Shown here: in pieces, positions 4,535 through 13,681 of the stretch
How positions within the stretch are numbered: the first letter of the stretch is position 1
Layout of the letters: each line of letters opens with the position of its first letter
IMG/VR virus record: IMGVR_UViG_3300040751_000439
Coordinates: 1 to 20,350 of that record
Strand: one strand, 5' to 3'
From: a virus
Length of the DNA stretch: 20,350 nucleotides
Notes under the pieces: generated by a model
Databases searched by the model: none
Seen by the model: the letters and a program-made list of their open reading frames with translations, nothing else
What the model was told of the DNA's origin: nothing
Made by a program: the position numbers and the translations under genes

Positions 4535-4563
4535 ATAATACTACAAAAATTGAATTACGTCAA
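4535..4563 (-). promoter_or_regulatory. sigma70-like promoter of dexA, TTGACG-17-TATTAT
   Basis: The -35 box TTGACG (4563-4558) overlaps the stop codon of the 251-residue gene. The -10 box TATTAT (4540-4535) follows after 17 bases. Initiation near 4528 gives a leader of about 17 bases with an AGAGG ribosome-binding site before dexA. This is the only intergenic gap in this part of the window, which supports a promoter function. Confidence 0.68.
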
Positions 4564-5315
4564 GACGACAATTGTTTAATTTCCTCTAATAACTGATCTT
4601 TGTTAAACACAACAGGTGCCGGCAACGGAATACTAACAGTATAATTGTGTTGACTGGTTGTTAAATCTTTGTAGATAAGATAGTTTGTTTGATACAACCC
4701 ACTGTTACTGCCATTACGTCTTGCAACAATTTTACCATCTACGTGTCCTTCAATTGCTACACGCTTGCCTGCTTGACGACTTTTAGATCCGCCTAATACT
4801 TCTGTCCATAGTACATCATACGGATTATAAAATACATGATCAAAGATGTCAACATCAACTAGGTAACGTGTCTGTGTACGATCAATACCGTGTCTCACAA
4901 CTACATCAAGTACATTGTTTGTACCTGGAAATTTATCATAACTTTCTTGTACAAATTCTTCGAACCCTATTAATGTAGCTTGACCTATTTGTAAAGGTGA
5001 ATTCTTTTGTTCATCTAATGTAACAGGCAAGTTGGTTCTACGCTGAATCATCATTTGACTTGTAGGATCAAATTCTTTAACAGGATGACTTAAAAAATCT
5101 CTGCTTTCAACTTTCTTTTTAATTGAAGGTTTAAATCCTAATGTTTTAATATTAAGAATATGATTGTCAAGTACACCATCTGCTAGGTACTTGTCACCTT
5201 CAATCCAAGTTGCACCCATTGCTGCACAAATAACCTGTTCCCAATTCTCTGCACTTAAACTATTATGTTTAAGTCCAAAGTATACTTGTGCTTTTAGCAT
5301 GTCTATATCAATCAT
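4560..5315 (-). CDS. unknown protein, 251 aa; possible PD-(D/E)xK-like nuclease
   Basis: Not recognised with confidence. The N-terminal region WEQVICAAMGATWIEG (25-40) followed by ADGVLDNHILNIKT (45-58) has the layout of type II restriction-like nucleases: a helix with an acidic residue, then an Asp-Gly strand, then a strand ending x-K-T. The usual Glu/Asp two residues before the Lys is Asn here (N55-I-K57), so activity is doubtful. The C-terminal half has several beta-like strands (YLVDVDIFDHVF, VAIEGHVDGKIVARR). It is the last gene of a three-gene set with a DGQHR/ParB-like and a possible HNH-like protein and overlaps the latter by 8 bases. A perfect sigma70 consensus lies within it (4824-4852). 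Confidence 0.85.
   Translation of the reverse strand: MIDIDMLKAQVYFGLKHNSLSAENWEQVICAAMGATWIEGDKYLADGVLDNHILNIKTLGFKPSIKKKVESRDFLSHPVKEFDPTSQMMIQRRTNLPVTLDEQKNSPLQIGQATLIGFEEFVQESYDKFPGTNNVLDVVVRHGIDRTQTRYLVDVDIFDHVFYNPYDVLWTEVLGGSKSRQAGKRVAIEGHVDGKIVARRNGSNSGLYQTNYLIYKDLTTSQHNYTVSIPLPAPVVFNKDQLLEEIKQLSS
4824..4852 (-). promoter_or_regulatory. perfect-consensus sigma70 promoter inside a gene, TTGACA-17-TATAAT
   Basis: The -35 box TTGACA (4852-4847) and the -10 box TATAAT (4829-4824) are separated by 17 bases, matching the bacterial housekeeping consensus at all 12 positions. It lies in the coding sequence for VDIFDHVFYN of the 251-residue protein. A transcript starting near 4817 would have about 300 bases of leader before dexA, or could serve an RNA function not otherwise visible. 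Confidence 0.55.
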
Positions 5316-5856
5316 TTAAAAACCTTTCAAAGTGTTCGTCTAGTGTCATTGCTGTATTAACATTAACACCATCATACGTTTCGAACAAGTCTTTTGTTTC
5401 AAAACTGTACTCATAACGTTTCCAAAAGTTGTAGATATCAGGTGTCTTGCTTGCCCAACCTGCTTCACGCAACTTGTCATCACGCTCTTTGCTCAACTTA
5501 CAAGTAGGCATGTTACATGCTTGCTTGGGTGTAATCACTTGTGCAATCAGCAAGTCTCGAATAGTGCTTGCTGGAACCATGTGTTCAAATATACCATTGC
5601 CTTCTAGTCCACGTTCAATGTAGTGAGCACCAATGTTTTCTTTGATGCAGTACTGATGGTAGCGGCGAAGTGCATTGTCAATGTCATCACGGATCAATCT
5701 GTATGTTTGTTCATCGTTTTTTGTGTTGCGATACAGTTCAACAAGACGTTCTAAATTTGCTGTAACATATGCGGCTGTTGCCGCATATGATTCTGTGCTA
5801 CGCTTTGTTCTAACATACACAGGAGCGTTAAAGTTTTTTAATGCTTCACGTAACAT
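5308..5856 (-). CDS. unknown protein, 182 aa; possible HNH / His-Me-finger-like domain
   Basis: The N-terminal half is helical and basic (residues 1-72). The centre carries FEHMVPASTIRDLLI (90-104) followed by CNMPTCKLSKERDDKLREAG (114-133). An E-H-x-V-P element followed by N...C..SK is reminiscent of HNH-type nucleases, where the His is the general base. The zinc-binding cysteine pairs of classical HNH proteins are absent, so this is only a candidate. The C-terminus (PDIYNFWKRYEYSF) is aromatic. The start overlaps the stop of the DGQHR protein as TAATG, and the end overlaps the 251-residue gene, so the three are translationally coupled. Confidence 0.85.
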   Translation of the reverse strand: MLREALKNFNAPVYVRTKRSTESYAATAAYVTANLERLVELYRNTKNDEQTYRLIRDDIDNALRRYHQYCIKENIGAHYIERGLEGNGIFEHMVPASTIRDLLIAQVITPKQACNMPTCKLSKERDDKLREAGWASKTPDIYNFWKRYEYSFETKDLFETYDGVNVNTAMTLDEHFERFLND

Positions 5857-6920
5857 TATGCTGCCTCAAGTGTTTTAGGAAACAGTCCAAGTACTGGGTT
5901 AGTTGCAACTTGCATCTTAGCACCTTCTCCGTGATACGGTAGGTTAATCTTGCCGCCGTTCAGCATGTACACTTCACGCAAGAAGTTTGCCATAGCACTT
6001 GGAGCACTCCAAGTTGCACCTGGGTTGACATGTTCCCATTGACGTTTTGCTTTGCTGTGTACTGTTGCAGTACTGTTAAACGATTTCTTAACACTACGCA
6101 GTACATCTTCCATCCAGTAGTCTGGCAGTTCACGATGATTCTGATCTAGTCGTGCTAGTTCATACAAGCCGATAAACACACCTTGATCAACTTCTTCTTG
6201 CAGTGGAAATACACTTACAATAGTTTGCAAAATGTTGTAAATCAATTTGCCACTGTTGTCTGCTTCAATTACCTTTTCTGCATACTTGAAGTGACTAAAG
6301 AAGTAGTCATTATCTCCACGCATGCCTGGTGATTTACGTGTGCCTTTGTCCTCCAAGTCAACACCAGTTTTATCAAACTGATCTTGCAGTGTACGAGCAA
6401 TTACGTTTTTCTGTTCACGGCTACCTAGTTTGTAACGTGTTAGTCGGTTACGGTGAATGTCTTGTGGTCCAAGTTTCTTGGTGCTCATGTTGCACTCTTC
6501 AAAAGCATAACTTGGGAATTGGATATCGTCTGTTTCGACTACAATACAAGGAATATGTGTAAAGCCTAGTACTGCTGTTGCAATAGTACGGTGCTGACCG
6601 TCAAAAGTCATGATAGGAGACTTTTGGTTATCAATGTCAAATACATCTGTACACGCACTTGCTGGCGAACACAGACGTGGATCGTAGCGTTTGATAATGC
6701 TGATAATGTGTTTGATGATTACATCACGTTGTACTTCATAATCAATCCACAGTAGATCAATTGGAAGCATCATACTGCCAACTGGAAACTTGTGTCCGTT
6801 AGCATCTACTCGTGCTCGTAATGCGTCTAGTTGTTCTTGGGTAATTCCGTACTCTGCTGCGAGAGTGATCTTAACTTCTGCGATTACATCAGTCAGTTTG
6901 CGGGTAAGTCTTTTAGCCAT
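5856..6920 (-). CDS. ParB/sulfiredoxin-like protein with DGQHR motif, 354 aa
   Basis: The N-terminal half has the ParB/Srx-type layout: LPIDLLWIDYEVQRD (residues 52-66), a helix with IIKRYDP, then a strand with the nucleotide-binding-type box FDGQHRTIATAVLG (106-119) and HIPCIVVE. DGQHR is the signature of a ParB-related family that includes DndB-type proteins, but the rest of this protein (helical, ending GLFPKTLEAA) matches nothing I know. ParB-fold proteins bind CTP or ATP and can bind or cut DNA; none of these activities is proven here. I start it at ATG 6920, which has GGAG six bases upstream. An in-frame ATG at 6974 coincides with the predicted transcription start and is less likely. 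It heads a three-gene cassette with its own promoter. Confidence 0.85.
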   Translation of the reverse strand: MAKRLTRKLTDVIAEVKITLAAEYGITQEQLDALRARVDANGHKFPVGSMMLPIDLLWIDYEVQRDVIIKHIISIIKRYDPRLCSPASACTDVFDIDNQKSPIMTFDGQHRTIATAVLGFTHIPCIVVETDDIQFPSYAFEECNMSTKKLGPQDIHRNRLTRYKLGSREQKNVIARTLQDQFDKTGVDLEDKGTRKSPGMRGDNDYFFSHFKYAEKVIEADNSGKLIYNILQTIVSVFPLQEEVDQGVFIGLYELARLDQNHRELPDYWMEDVLRSVKKSFNSTATVHSKAKRQWEHVNPGATWSAPSAMANFLREVYMLNGGKINLPYHGEGAKMQVATNPVLGLFPKTLEAA

Positions 6921-6950
6921 TATATACTCCATCTTACTATAAGACTGCTT

Positions 6951-6965
6951 GGAACACAATGTTCC
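6951..6965. repeat. inverted repeat GGAACA-CAA-TGTTCC in the leader
   Basis: A perfect six-base inverted repeat with a three-base centre lies about 10 to 24 bases downstream of the predicted transcription start and upstream of the DGQHR gene. It could be a repressor half-site pair or a short mRNA hairpin at the 5' end. It differs in sequence from the palindrome in the promoter spacer. Confidence 0.6.
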
Positions 6966-6980
6966 TTGCTTCATGTATAT

Positions 6981-7009
6981 AATATAACACGGGCCGTAGC
7001 CCGTGTCAA
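6981..7009 (-). promoter_or_regulatory. strong sigma70-like promoter, TTGACA-17-TATATT with TGT extension
   Basis: The -35 box TTGACA (7009-7004), a 17-base spacer and the -10 box TATATT (6986-6981) are preceded by TGT, an extended -10 element. The predicted start is near 6974, giving a leader of about 54 bases before the GGAG and ATG at 6920. It lies in the largest gene-free gap of the window (6921-7049) and drives the DGQHR cassette. The spacer is occupied by a palindrome. Confidence 0.78.
6987..7006. repeat. perfect palindrome ACACGGGC-CGTA-GCCCGTGT in the promoter spacer (putative operator)
   Basis: This inverted repeat has two eight-base arms and a four-base centre. It fills the whole -35/-10 spacer and the first bases of the -35 box, the classic location of a repressor operator. 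It is strikingly GC-rich in an AT-rich region. As RNA it would form a stable hairpin, but the bases that follow on the minus strand (TATATTATATA) are not a U-run, so an intrinsic terminator for the upstream gene is unlikely. Confidence 0.75.
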
Positions 7010-9643: not shown

Positions 9644-12600
9644 TTACATGTTAAACTTATAGTTTCCGAATAGCAAATATTGTTCGCTATTGTTTTCATC
9701 CGTACTTTCAACAATGTATCTGTCAATTTCATAGTTTATTTGTTTAAAGTTAAATTCACTATTTTCAATGTTTTCTTTTACTAATTGTGCTGTTCCAGGT
9801 TTACAGTAACACAATGGTATCGCAGCAACATAATCAATTTCAGCAATACTACCATCTTGTGCTGTTCTCATCCACAGTGGTAAGAATAATCTTTCATCAG
9901 CACCTATTTCTGATATACGTTTACGCATGTTTGAAATATTACTTATATATCGAACTAGATCTTTGCTTTGACTTGCTAACAATGCATTACTATCTGCTGT
10001 GATTACTCTACTGTTTGGTCTAAATCTAAATGGATCTGTTGTTGACGAAGTACCACTAGATGCAACAGGTCTTACTACAACAACATTTCCGTTTCTGTCT
10101 AGCAATTCTATTTGTCCAAATGTATCAACACTGATAGTTCCATTGTTTCTTGTAACAATACTTATTTTAGCACCGCTTTCAAGTATTGGTGCAGCATCGT
10201 TGTCTCTTCTACCAATTGAATAACTAGAGTTAGCAACTTCAACCTTTGTAGTATCATCTAAAATTTCTATCTTAACTTGGTTAGCTAAAATAGGTTCGTG
10301 TGTTACAATTCTTGTTTCAAGTTTATTTTGCTTGCCTTTTTCAGGCTCTTGTGGGTCAACAACTTCAATATAAACAACTTCGTATATTGCATCAGTAGTT
10401 CCCGGCTGCACTGCCTGTGCAATTTTTAAATCACCAAAACGGAATTTTTTACGTTTGTGATTTTTAGCAACTGCTGCTGCAAAGTCGTGTATACTTTTTT
10501 GTTCTATACCTGCATACACTAGTGTACGTAAATCTTTTTGTAATCCAAAGTTTTCATCGTATGGACGATATATGTAATTAGGGGTAAAAATATCAATATC
10601 GTTTATAAAGTTTTCAAATACTTGACGTTGGCTCACAGGCAAGAACGGTTTCATATACACGTTTGTATATTCTTTTTGATCAACATCTACAACATTCAAT
10701 GTAAATTCACGTATTCTTGCACTGTATCCAAATCTGTCTCTAACTAATACTTTGAATTTGTATGCTCTATCTATAGTAGTTGTGCCACCGTCAAAAGTCG
10801 TTGCTTGTGTTAACGCTTCCCAGTAATCAGTTGCAGTGCTTGGTGTTAACGAAATATTTGACAAGTGTGCCTGTAAACATATGTAAAGAGAATCAGCATA
10901 TGTTATAACATCTCCTGCAAAATATTCTGCACCACTATCCCAAATAGTAGTACCTTGGTCAATATCGGTTAATCCTAAATTACCATCTTTTGAAAATTGA
11001 TTAACTTTACCTACAATTTCTCCGTCACGTTTTAATGTTAATCCGTTTGGCAATCTGCCGCCAATCAAATCAAAACGTAATGTACTATCTTCAAGTGTGC
11101 TAGTTGCTTCTAACTTTAAATAACTTGTTCTGTTTGCTGTTATTGATGGTAATACAGGATCAGTAATCCAGTTTATAGTACTTTCAACTTCACCTAATAT
11201 ATCAATACTAAATGTTTTTGGAGAACTGATAATTTCATTGTTAGCGACACTAAGTTTTTGTGTAAACACTGTTCCTCTTGACACAGCCATAATAAATTGT
11301 CTGCCAATGTTTGCAGTTGATTGATATGGATTATCAATAGTAACTCTCCAACATTCTGTATAACGTCTATTAACTGTACCTTTGTATGCTAATACTTCGC
11401 TGCTGTCGCTGGTATGGAATGCTTGAGTAATATAGTTTTTGTTTAGTGTATTTGCTGATTCTTGTACTCTTATTTCTACAGTTTGAGAATCTAACAACGT
11501 AATTTTGTATGAACTCCAACTTGTAAATCCTGGAAATAGTGTAACTAGATATCTGCCAATTGCATCTTCAAACGTTTCTCCAGGCACAGGTGTTATTCCT
11601 GCTTCGTCATAGTTAAATTCTAATGTAGCAGCACCTTGTGCTTTAATAGTCCAAACAATGTATTTTTGAATTGCTTGAATCTTATACCTGTTTGAATCTG
11701 AAAAAATAACGTCTTTGCTATCCCAATATGCTCTGTGATACGGATCTGCTAAACTTTCGTAATCTACAAACCATTCTAAATCATTTAAACTAACATTTTC
11801 GATAAGTGTTAATGGTGGTGCTTGATAAGTTGCTTCAAGCGGTCTATCAAATGTAATTGTATCATACTCTATGTTGTTTCCGTTTACACTTTCAACTTTG
11901 TATGGAACATTTTCAATGGTCACTGTTTGACTTACTAATGCTTCTAAGTCATTGATTCCGTCACTGATATCTCTAGGCAACTTGTTAACTTTAATAGTTG
12001 TTTTGCCAGCAAGTGTATCTTCATACAAGTTTGCAGCAACTTCGACTATATCCAAGTCTGATTCGCCTCTTAGTGCTTCTACAGTAAATCTATAACGTCT
12101 TGTAACTGCTGGCTGATAAGGAATAATACCTGCTAGTTCTCCTGTGACACTATCTAAAACCAATCCTGGAGGTAACTCACTTGGAGTACCATCATCGTTG
12201 ACATCTTTTAATACATAACTAATAGTGCCTAATAATGTATTAGGATCATATACATCTAAGTATACTGTTTGATAATTGTTTGCTCTGCGTTGTCCTAAAT
12301 ATCCTGGTGTTATCCAAACAGGCTTTCTCAGATAAGTATTATCTGCTGTAAATATACCTGTACCTGCTTGCATAACTGTGTTATCTGCACGTAGGAAATC
12401 ATCACCAACAACATATATTCTAAAATCTCTTTTGCTTTCGCTTACATCATCTGCAACTGTAACTGTAAAATTAAAGTATCTGTTTAATTTTTTAGGCTGA
12501 CGTGTTGTATTATAATAACCATAGTATTGACTATCAAACAAATAGCTATCATAGCCATCGTTGTCAACTACTCTATAATCAAGAGGTGTTGTATCAAACT

Positions 12601-13681
12601 TTGAGTTGTCGTATCCAGGAACATCATACTTGTCTAGTGCTAGTATTGGTTCAACAATTCCACTGATTTTGCCAGAGCTACTTAATGTTAATCCTGGAGG
12701 TAATTCACCATCTCCGTCTGCAATAAAATATTCAAGTTTGCCACCTGCAATCAAATCAGTATCACTGGCTTCAAGCTGATAATCAACAAAGTCATTGTCT
12801 AGTATAAAAAATACATTGCTTTGACTACTTGGAGCAGTATTTCTAAATTCGTAGTATAATGATTCCCATTGTCCTTCTGCTTCAATATAAATCAAAAAGT
12901 TAAGTTTAAAATCATTGTTATATGTTTGAATCCATATTTGTCTATCCTGCGGATCTAGCGGAGCAGTAAATTGAATATCGTATTCTTGAGGTATCCACTG
13001 CAAACTTTCAGGATCATAATTGCGAATTTCTAAATCCAAACCGTTGATCAAATTATTAGTATTGAGCCAGAAGTTATATTTTGATGGGTTTGGAGTAGTA
13101 TTTGTTACAATCATTGTAGTCGATTGTCCAAGTTGATCTTTCAACGCACTGCTGGTCATTTTATACCAGATGCCGCTCTTTTTAAACCAGTATTGTCCAG
13201 TTTCTAAATTAAATGCATAGTCACCATCATTGCCTTCTGAACGACTAGGAATACCTTCGTATATGTCTACCGAAGTTCTAGTCCATTGTAATCCGTCACT
13301 GACAAATATATCAAAATTACTACCGTTGATATATAGCCAATAGTTTCTTAAATCTCTACCACCAATATTAAGTAATCCTTCAGGCGTTATCCATTTAGGT
13401 TCGTCTGCTCCGATTACTTCTATTGTGAAAGTTCTATCTGTAATTCCTGTTGTATTTGTTGCTCTTAGTGTAAATTCGTATTCTGTTGTTCTGTTTACCT
13501 CAAAAGGAACTCCGGTAATCTGTAAATCTTCTATACGTAGACCAGGAGGCATTGTTCCAGCAATAACAGAAATAGTAGTTTCGCCATCATCTGTTATTGG
13601 TAAGTTAATTTGATAATCAACTCTTTCGTTTAACGAAGCTAATTGTGTACCACTACGTTCAGTCCATGCCGGGTATGCCAT
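9644..13681 (-). CDS. giant structural protein with Ig-like (He_PIG) repeats and a CBM5/12-like module, 1345 aa
   Basis: This is a very large virion protein, probably part of the tail, baseplate or fibre. It has at least four He_PIG-type Ig-like repeats with the PPGL...G.I.G pattern: GTMPPGLRIEDLQITGVP near residue 42, LPPGLTLSSSGKISG near 325, LPPGLVLDSVTGELAG near 501 and LPNGLTLKRDGEIVG near 875. Residues about 912-957 (IWDSGAEYFAGDVITYADSL, then YICL and YWEAL) look like a CBM5/12-type carbohydrate-binding module inserted between Ig-like parts. An early DGDYAFNLETGQYWF segment (about 153-167) resembles repeats found in other fibres. The C-terminal 350 residues are not recognised. It starts at the ATG with AAGGA six bases upstream, nine bases after the preceding gene. 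It has no late promoter of its own. Confidence 0.9.
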   Translation of the reverse strand: MAYPAWTERSGTQLASLNERVDYQINLPITDDGETTISVIAGTMPPGLRIEDLQITGVPFEVNRTTEYEFTLRATNTTGITDRTFTIEVIGADEPKWITPEGLLNIGGRDLRNYWLYINGSNFDIFVSDGLQWTRTSVDIYEGIPSRSEGNDGDYAFNLETGQYWFKKSGIWYKMTSSALKDQLGQSTTMIVTNTTPNPSKYNFWLNTNNLINGLDLEIRNYDPESLQWIPQEYDIQFTAPLDPQDRQIWIQTYNNDFKLNFLIYIEAEGQWESLYYEFRNTAPSSQSNVFFILDNDFVDYQLEASDTDLIAGGKLEYFIADGDGELPPGLTLSSSGKISGIVEPILALDKYDVPGYDNSKFDTTPLDYRVVDNDGYDSYLFDSQYYGYYNTTRQPKKLNRYFNFTVTVADDVSESKRDFRIYVVGDDFLRADNTVMQAGTGIFTADNTYLRKPVWITPGYLGQRRANNYQTVYLDVYDPNTLLGTISYVLKDVNDDGTPSELPPGLVLDSVTGELAGIIPYQPAVTRRYRFTVEALRGESDLDIVEVAANLYEDTLAGKTTIKVNKLPRDISDGINDLEALVSQTVTIENVPYKVESVNGNNIEYDTITFDRPLEATYQAPPLTLIENVSLNDLEWFVDYESLADPYHRAYWDSKDVIFSDSNRYKIQAIQKYIVWTIKAQGAATLEFNYDEAGITPVPGETFEDAIGRYLVTLFPGFTSWSSYKITLLDSQTVEIRVQESANTLNKNYITQAFHTSDSSEVLAYKGTVNRRYTECWRVTIDNPYQSTANIGRQFIMAVSRGTVFTQKLSVANNEIISSPKTFSIDILGEVESTINWITDPVLPSITANRTSYLKLEATSTLEDSTLRFDLIGGRLPNGLTLKRDGEIVGKVNQFSKDGNLGLTDIDQGTTIWDSGAEYFAGDVITYADSLYICLQAHLSNISLTPSTATDYWEALTQATTFDGGTTTIDRAYKFKVLVRDRFGYSARIREFTLNVVDVDQKEYTNVYMKPFLPVSQRQVFENFINDIDIFTPNYIYRPYDENFGLQKDLRTLVYAGIEQKSIHDFAAAVAKNHKRKKFRFGDLKIAQAVQPGTTDAIYEVVYIEVVDPQEPEKGKQNKLETRIVTHEPILANQVKIEILDDTTKVEVANSSYSIGRRDNDAAPILESGAKISIVTRNNGTISVDTFGQIELLDRNGNVVVVRPVASSGTSSTTDPFRFRPNSRVITADSNALLASQSKDLVRYISNISNMRKRISEIGADERLFLPLWMRTAQDGSIAEIDYVAAIPLCYCKPGTAQLVKENIENSEFNFKQINYEIDRYIVESTDENNSEQYLLFGNYKFNM

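Follow-up and report, generated by a model that had tools for sequence, protein, structure and literature searches.

We report a conserved operon of two genes, present in single copy, that has a promoter of its own and a leader with an RNA hairpin. So far, we have found it nowhere but in contigs of uncultured viruses that are T4-like or of jumbo size. Its first gene encodes a protein for which structure prediction supports a ParB/sulfiredoxin (Srx) fold, and its second gene a protein that we call HNH-like and that would, judging from its sequence and model, be a nuclease. No family model, name or cultured relative of the pair was found. We will argue, with somewhat less than even confidence, that it represents a GmrSD-like ParB/Srx and HNH core that is bordered by interchangeable mobile nucleases of the homing type.

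The window, by which we mean the whole stretch of DNA that was analysed, is the 20,350-base IMG/VR virus record IMGVR_UViG_3300040751_000439, a 20-kb fragment with T4-like genes for a clamp loader, a DexA-like exonuclease, MazG and a gp31-like cochaperonin. It also encodes a 1345-aa protein (9644-13681, minus strand) that has no tblastn match at E 1e-5 in 50,697 phage records. The three reading frames that an earlier note had described as a self-contained cassette are present at the places it gave and are coupled as it had said, the first two having one base in common in TAATG and the last two overlapping by 8 bases (5308-5315). Since conservation in the protein alignment begins at the MAKR of the ParB-like frame, this protein probably starts at 6920 and not at 6974. 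The notion of a self-contained three-gene unit, however, has to be given up. The third gene, of 251 amino acids, falls outside the conserved cassette, because one relative (L002) lacks it, another (L001) carries an unrelated gene, and no relative of the gene itself was found. The expected co-occurrence is thus seen for two of the genes, while the third is replaced elsewhere by other genes, very often nucleases; what is conserved is a pair, followed by a variable third gene. The features of the locus are collected in Table 1.

Table 1. Positions in the window of the operon, its control elements and the adjoining gene.
Feature	Position	Strand	Remark
Sigma70-type operon promoter, TTGACA-17-TATATT	6981-7009	-	TG before -10; 11/12
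Near-perfect inverted repeat ACACGGGCTACGGCCCGTGT in promoter spacer, between -35 and -10	6985-7008	-	
Leader hairpin A, GGAAC-ATTGT-GTTCC, loop AUNGU	6951-6965	-	covariation
Leader hairpin B, TCTT-ATAGT-AAGA, weaker second copy just before ribosome binding site	6932-6944	-	
Core gene 1, ParB/Srx-fold DGQHR-type protein (predicted)	5856-6974	-	372-aa ORF; likely start 6920, 354 aa
Core gene 2, HNH-like protein (E91-H92, N115, D126)	5308-5856	-	182 aa
Orphan gene of 251 aa, in the variable slot that follows the core	4560-5315	-	
Promoter-like site of dexA, TTGACG-17-TATTAT	4535-4563	-	10/12; cassette end

Both promoters that had been proposed, one belonging to the operon and one for dexA directly after the cassette, are found in the window, and the former has counterparts in the relatives. 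In 66 of 75 relatives, a match of at least 10/12 lies within the 150 nt before the ParB-like gene, compared with a share of 9% in random windows and of 20% in the stretches ahead of other ORFs, and the operon promoter is thus above chance. The inverted repeat in its spacer is kept in L002 with a changed centre and is absent from L001; it is possibly an operator. A perfect TTGACA-17-TATAAT is located within the 251-aa gene (4852-4824, minus strand), directed toward dexA. Embedded promoters for the next gene are often found in T4 homing genes.

A scan of 2.9 million viral contigs yielded 141 stretches for the ParB-like protein and 138 for the HNH-like one, and the best 80 of each were kept. After removal of duplicates, these amount to at least 85 distinct IMG/VR modules in which the two genes are adjacent or are parted only by a slot gene. 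Among the kept loci (the best 80 of 141), the ParB-like gene is never alone, as the four loci that had this appearance in a first count are all truncated, the contig ending within the partner gene. The HNH-like gene is found without it in three loci (L103, L104 and L135); at L135:5340-6561, a slot nuclease and the HNH-like gene remain, with the ParB-like gene and the leader missing. Of 34 large contigs, all have a single copy of the HNH-like gene, and 33 have a single copy of the ParB-like gene. The window proteins gave no tblastn match in the 50,697 phage records, and a pattern scan of GTDB genome contigs for a bacterial home of the pair found no relative. One diverged member has a match (E 1e-4) to a 'partitioning protein' of a Microcystis phage, which by annotation has no HNH-like neighbour.

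The AlphaFold2 model of the ParB-like protein (pLDDT 86) bears out the ParB fold that had been assigned to it from the sequence. The leading Foldseek matches are ParB, KorB, Noc and sulfiredoxin, with E values from 0.002 to 0.3 and a best probability of 1.00, and VIA-align places 94 residues (66-167) on Myxococcus ParB (7bnr) with a Z of 8.4 and an rmsd of 2.4, the rows for unrelated helical proteins being at Z below 4. The part so aligned has the N-terminal CTP-binding fold of ParB, and the alignment to KorB continues past the CTP domain to span 186 residues. All 25 members compared share the motifs QR (82-83), DxQxR (125-129) and FxxxN (158-162) without change; QR, DGQ(H/Q)R and FxxxN are the three motifs given for GmrS and DGQHR domains (PMC4619093). 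At the position of the DGQHR pentapeptide, 15 of the 25 have DAQHR and three have DGQQR. The DGQHR model TIGR03187 (DndB) gives 12.0 bits against a cut-off of 58.85, and a PDB profile search with the DGQ alignment returned chance matches only. As the curated family models fail, we consider the protein to be a ParB/Srx-fold protein of DGQHR type that stands outside the curated families.

The model of the HNH-like protein (pLDDT 93) has a helical hairpin (21-72), a strand (89-92) ending in E91-H92, then N115, a second strand (118-121) and a helix (123-131) with residue 126. All 25 members compared have E91, H92 and N115, and at position 126 there is H in 16 of them and D in 9. The order of these residues, on a strand-strand-helix (beta-beta-alpha) arrangement, is that of an HNH site. 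Compared with the site of the GmrSD partner, E/D-H-N-N, the layout fits, with H or D and not N at position 126, and without a structural match. In all Foldseek and VIA matches the helical hairpin (19-76) dominated, a BFVD search gave nothing under E 0.1, and Pfam HNH_4 is touched by three members at E 0.07 or worse. The HNH-like reading of the earlier note is hence upheld by the invariant residues and the beta-beta-alpha layout, but not by any match to a known structure or family. Its remark that the combination is not recognisable as a named system stands, since PADLOC finds no system and the pair does not match the family models of the nearest layout, GmrSD. Some SLATT-like hits (E 0.005-0.1) correspond to the helical hairpin of the HNH-like protein.

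The leader of the operon was studied in an alignment of 58 leader hairpins, picked by loop motif and place only, the exceptions to this rule being the row of the window itself and a few near-duplicates that were omitted. Across these leaders, 88% of the stem cells are paired, against 53% in shuffles, the covariation is 0.775, against 0.208 in the shuffled case, and double changes are seen in all five stem pairs. AUNGU-loop hairpins with at least five pairs number 46 in the leaders and 29 elsewhere in 855 kb, both strands counted, and two hairpins with stems of at least four are present in 21 of 76 leaders. Rfam gives no match in the window. Folding of the single leader sequence has a z of -0.96, which is not significant alone, and the case for the hairpin rests therefore on the covariation. 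Because the centre is constant and the arms vary, an RNA element appears to fit better than a DNA operator, and it most likely sets the translation of the operon. The AUNGU hairpin, a new RNA element with a covarying stem, is a hallmark of the operon. In L059, L068 and L102, where a nuclease is the first gene, the hairpin is ahead of the nuclease, and in L042 there is one hairpin before each gene. A PD-(D/E)xK-like nuclease lies ahead of the ParB-like gene at L102:4373-4945 and in L046, L068 and L042, with the hairpin before it in L102, L068 and L042.

The 251-aa gene occupies the downstream slot of this operon. Compared with L002, the nearest relative with the dexA flank, in which the pair is 85% identical and runs straight into dexA, the gene is one insert between the last HNH-like codons and the dexA promoter. 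In L001, with a pair that is 96-99% identical, an unrelated 310-aa gene is coupled at the same stop codon. The GC content of the 251-aa gene is 35%, compared with 40-44% in its immediate neighbours, and some other genes of the window are equally low. Its protein has no homologue and no Pfam, PADLOC or PDB match. D47 and N57-x-K59 fit a degenerate PD-(D/E)xK layout, read by eye in this one orphan sequence, and the Q-x-K of one slot family (A6) suggests that the E of PD-(D/E)xK can be replaced. In the reading that we prefer, the gene would be a passenger of the homing-type kind.

A gap of 165-1120 bases is present between the two core genes in 54 modules, the genes touching each other otherwise, and it is nearly always filled by an intact gene, most often a nuclease. 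When all three junctions are counted, 62 of the 85 modules (73%) have a nuclease-family gene, 51 of them one and 11 of them two, while none was detected in the other 23; by junction, the middle holds 52 of the slot nuclease genes, the downstream side 14 and the upstream side 7. They belong to at least ten unrelated families, are nearly always on the same strand and are often coupled by a few bases. Among them are EndoVII/HNH, a second HNH family, a GIY-YIG-like family (A5), the PD-(D/E)xK-like A6, T5orf172, MUG113 and a relative of MvaI/BcnI (34.9 bits, cut-off 25), and the Pfam matches are to HNH_3, HNH, T5orf172 and MvaI_BcnI. A5, the largest family, is assigned to GIY-YIG by its invariant YxY, KxG, R, E and N, an assignment that Pfam and PDB searches do not confirm; some downstream families (R260, R214, R184, R156, R186 and HNH310) are nuclease-like solely by motifs read by eye. 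The 25 commonest Pfam matches of 129 proteins flanking these loci include no nuclease family. At L031:6596-8009, a REase-like 186-aa gene and then a DNA methyltransferase (DPPY) adjoin the pair. Relatives of the former in L016 and L050 come without a methyltransferase; the R186 genes there lie upstream of the promoter and are probably not parts of the module.

The occupants mostly differ between cores that are more than 88% identical, and often between those above 90%, as seen for L127/L151 (99.7%, empty versus HNH), L113/L112 (96%), L012/L115 (97%) and L129/L149 (95%). Empty and filled sites with matching flanks are found in L127/L151 and L114/L134, and decayed remnants of slot genes are almost entirely missing. 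Differing nuclease classes occur at the same border of the conserved locus, which is the pattern by which HEG islands are recognised. In 34 records (6.2 Mb), all eight copies of A5 and all four of A6 adjoin the pair, whereas the ordinary GIY-YIG genes and most other HNH genes of the same phages lie away from it; by a rough estimate, the nuclease density at the pair is some 50 times that of the other HNH/GIY genes there. Self-avoidance of CCWGG/CCSGG beside the MvaI/BcnI homologue, whose own site may differ, was not seen.

In the explanation that we place first, the two core proteins would act together on DNA in the manner of GmrS and GmrD, as their fold and motifs suggest: the ParB/Srx protein would bind nucleotide and DNA, and the HNH-like partner would cut or nick. 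The genes in the slots would be mobile nucleases, for the most part of the homing type, that travel as passengers beside the pair. Conserved phage genes bordered by homing nucleases, at a fixed place and with a changing class that includes HNH to PD-(D/E)xK, are known as HEG islands (Barth, Dunham and Seed 2023, PMC10448857), and in T4, free-standing homing genes often lie within an existing operon and lack a promoter, and the cuts they make are distant from the homing gene itself (PMC2988022). Homing is placed first since it explains the turnover, the clean insertion and the operon coupling. Against the GmrSD-like core speak the unmatched GmrSD models, a Z of only 3.0 to BrxU, and an HNH-like model without structural match; against homing passengers, the slot families show a much closer tie to the pair than general homing genes do, and a first-placed nuclease takes over the leader hairpin.

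Homing accounts less well for the confinement of A5 and A6 to the pair, for the convergence of so many unrelated families on it, for the missing remnants and for the shared leader. The strongest rival, an integrated three-part system, is thus a serious one, although we place it on the unlikely side. The core would here carry or license a swappable nuclease against competing phages, satellites or host DNA, and a swap would change the target, as in ICP1 Odn. The frequency and variety of the nucleases at any of the three junctions agree with this, as do the confinement of the two families that were searched genome-wide, the estimated density, and the first-placed nucleases behind the leader hairpin (L042, L059, L068 and L102). 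The host-type promoter is as expected for early genes, a methyltransferase has been added in one module (L031), and L135 keeps a nuclease with the HNH-like gene when the ParB-like gene is gone. The modules with no detected nuclease or with two do not suit such a system, nor does the lack of a constant partner domain; the exchange of genes beside conserved ones is familiar from homing (PMC10448857), and sites of the MvaI/BcnI type nearby show no avoidance. We regard as unlikely the proposal of phage-borne interference in which the core, under the AUNGU leader, uses any slot nuclease and selection swaps the cutter among the families to change the target.

That the first protein binds DNA for regulation or segregation in the manner of ParB or KorB, its partner being structural and not cleaving and the nucleases incidental, seems to us quite improbable. 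The closest folds and the length of the KorB alignment are in its favour, together with the weak match of one member to the phage 'partitioning protein'. However, DxQxR stands in place of the GERRxRA box of ParB, it is difficult to account for the invariant E-H, N and H/D of the partner unless there is a metal site, a shallow search found no partition sites, and nothing specific points to genome segregation. A true type IV restriction enzyme of the GmrSD family, carried by phages against modified DNA, is very improbable. The same two-fold layout, the separate genes as in E. coli CT596 and the same three GmrS motifs speak for it; the lack of any match to PF03235 or PF07510 and the low BrxU score speak against it.

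Returning to the GmrSD-like core with homing-type passengers, its closest counterpart is GmrSD itself (DUF262 and DUF1524, including BrxU and SspE), with which the pair shares a ParB/Srx fold with QR, DGQ(H/Q)R and FxxxN beside an HNH-type partner. It differs in failing the DUF262 and DUF1524 models, in being found here only in phage contigs, and in the other sequence of its partner (E-H ... N ... H/D). With the DGQHR-domain protein DndB, the likeness is in the signature pentapeptide and the flanking motifs, but the ParB-like protein scores far below the cut-off of that model and no Dnd genes were seen nearby. HEG islands (PMC10448857) and the seg/mob genes of T4 (PMC2988022) have in common with the present locus that conserved genes are bordered by interchangeable nuclease classes, on the same strand and often promoterless. 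The present locus is set apart in that the slot families keep to a single small pair of non-structural genes, whose leader hairpin they can share, that the occupant in the window is an orphan, and that the homing is putative. ICP1 Odn and other domesticated anti-satellite nucleases (PMC8263062, PMC10448857) are likewise swappable phage nucleases in a fixed place, with T5orf172 among their types; here, no RepA-like targeting domain was seen, and the nuclease is accompanied by the conserved ParB/Srx and HNH-like pair. Since a single slot allows at least ten nuclease families to be set side by side, the choice between a homing passenger and a domesticated weapon becomes directly testable.
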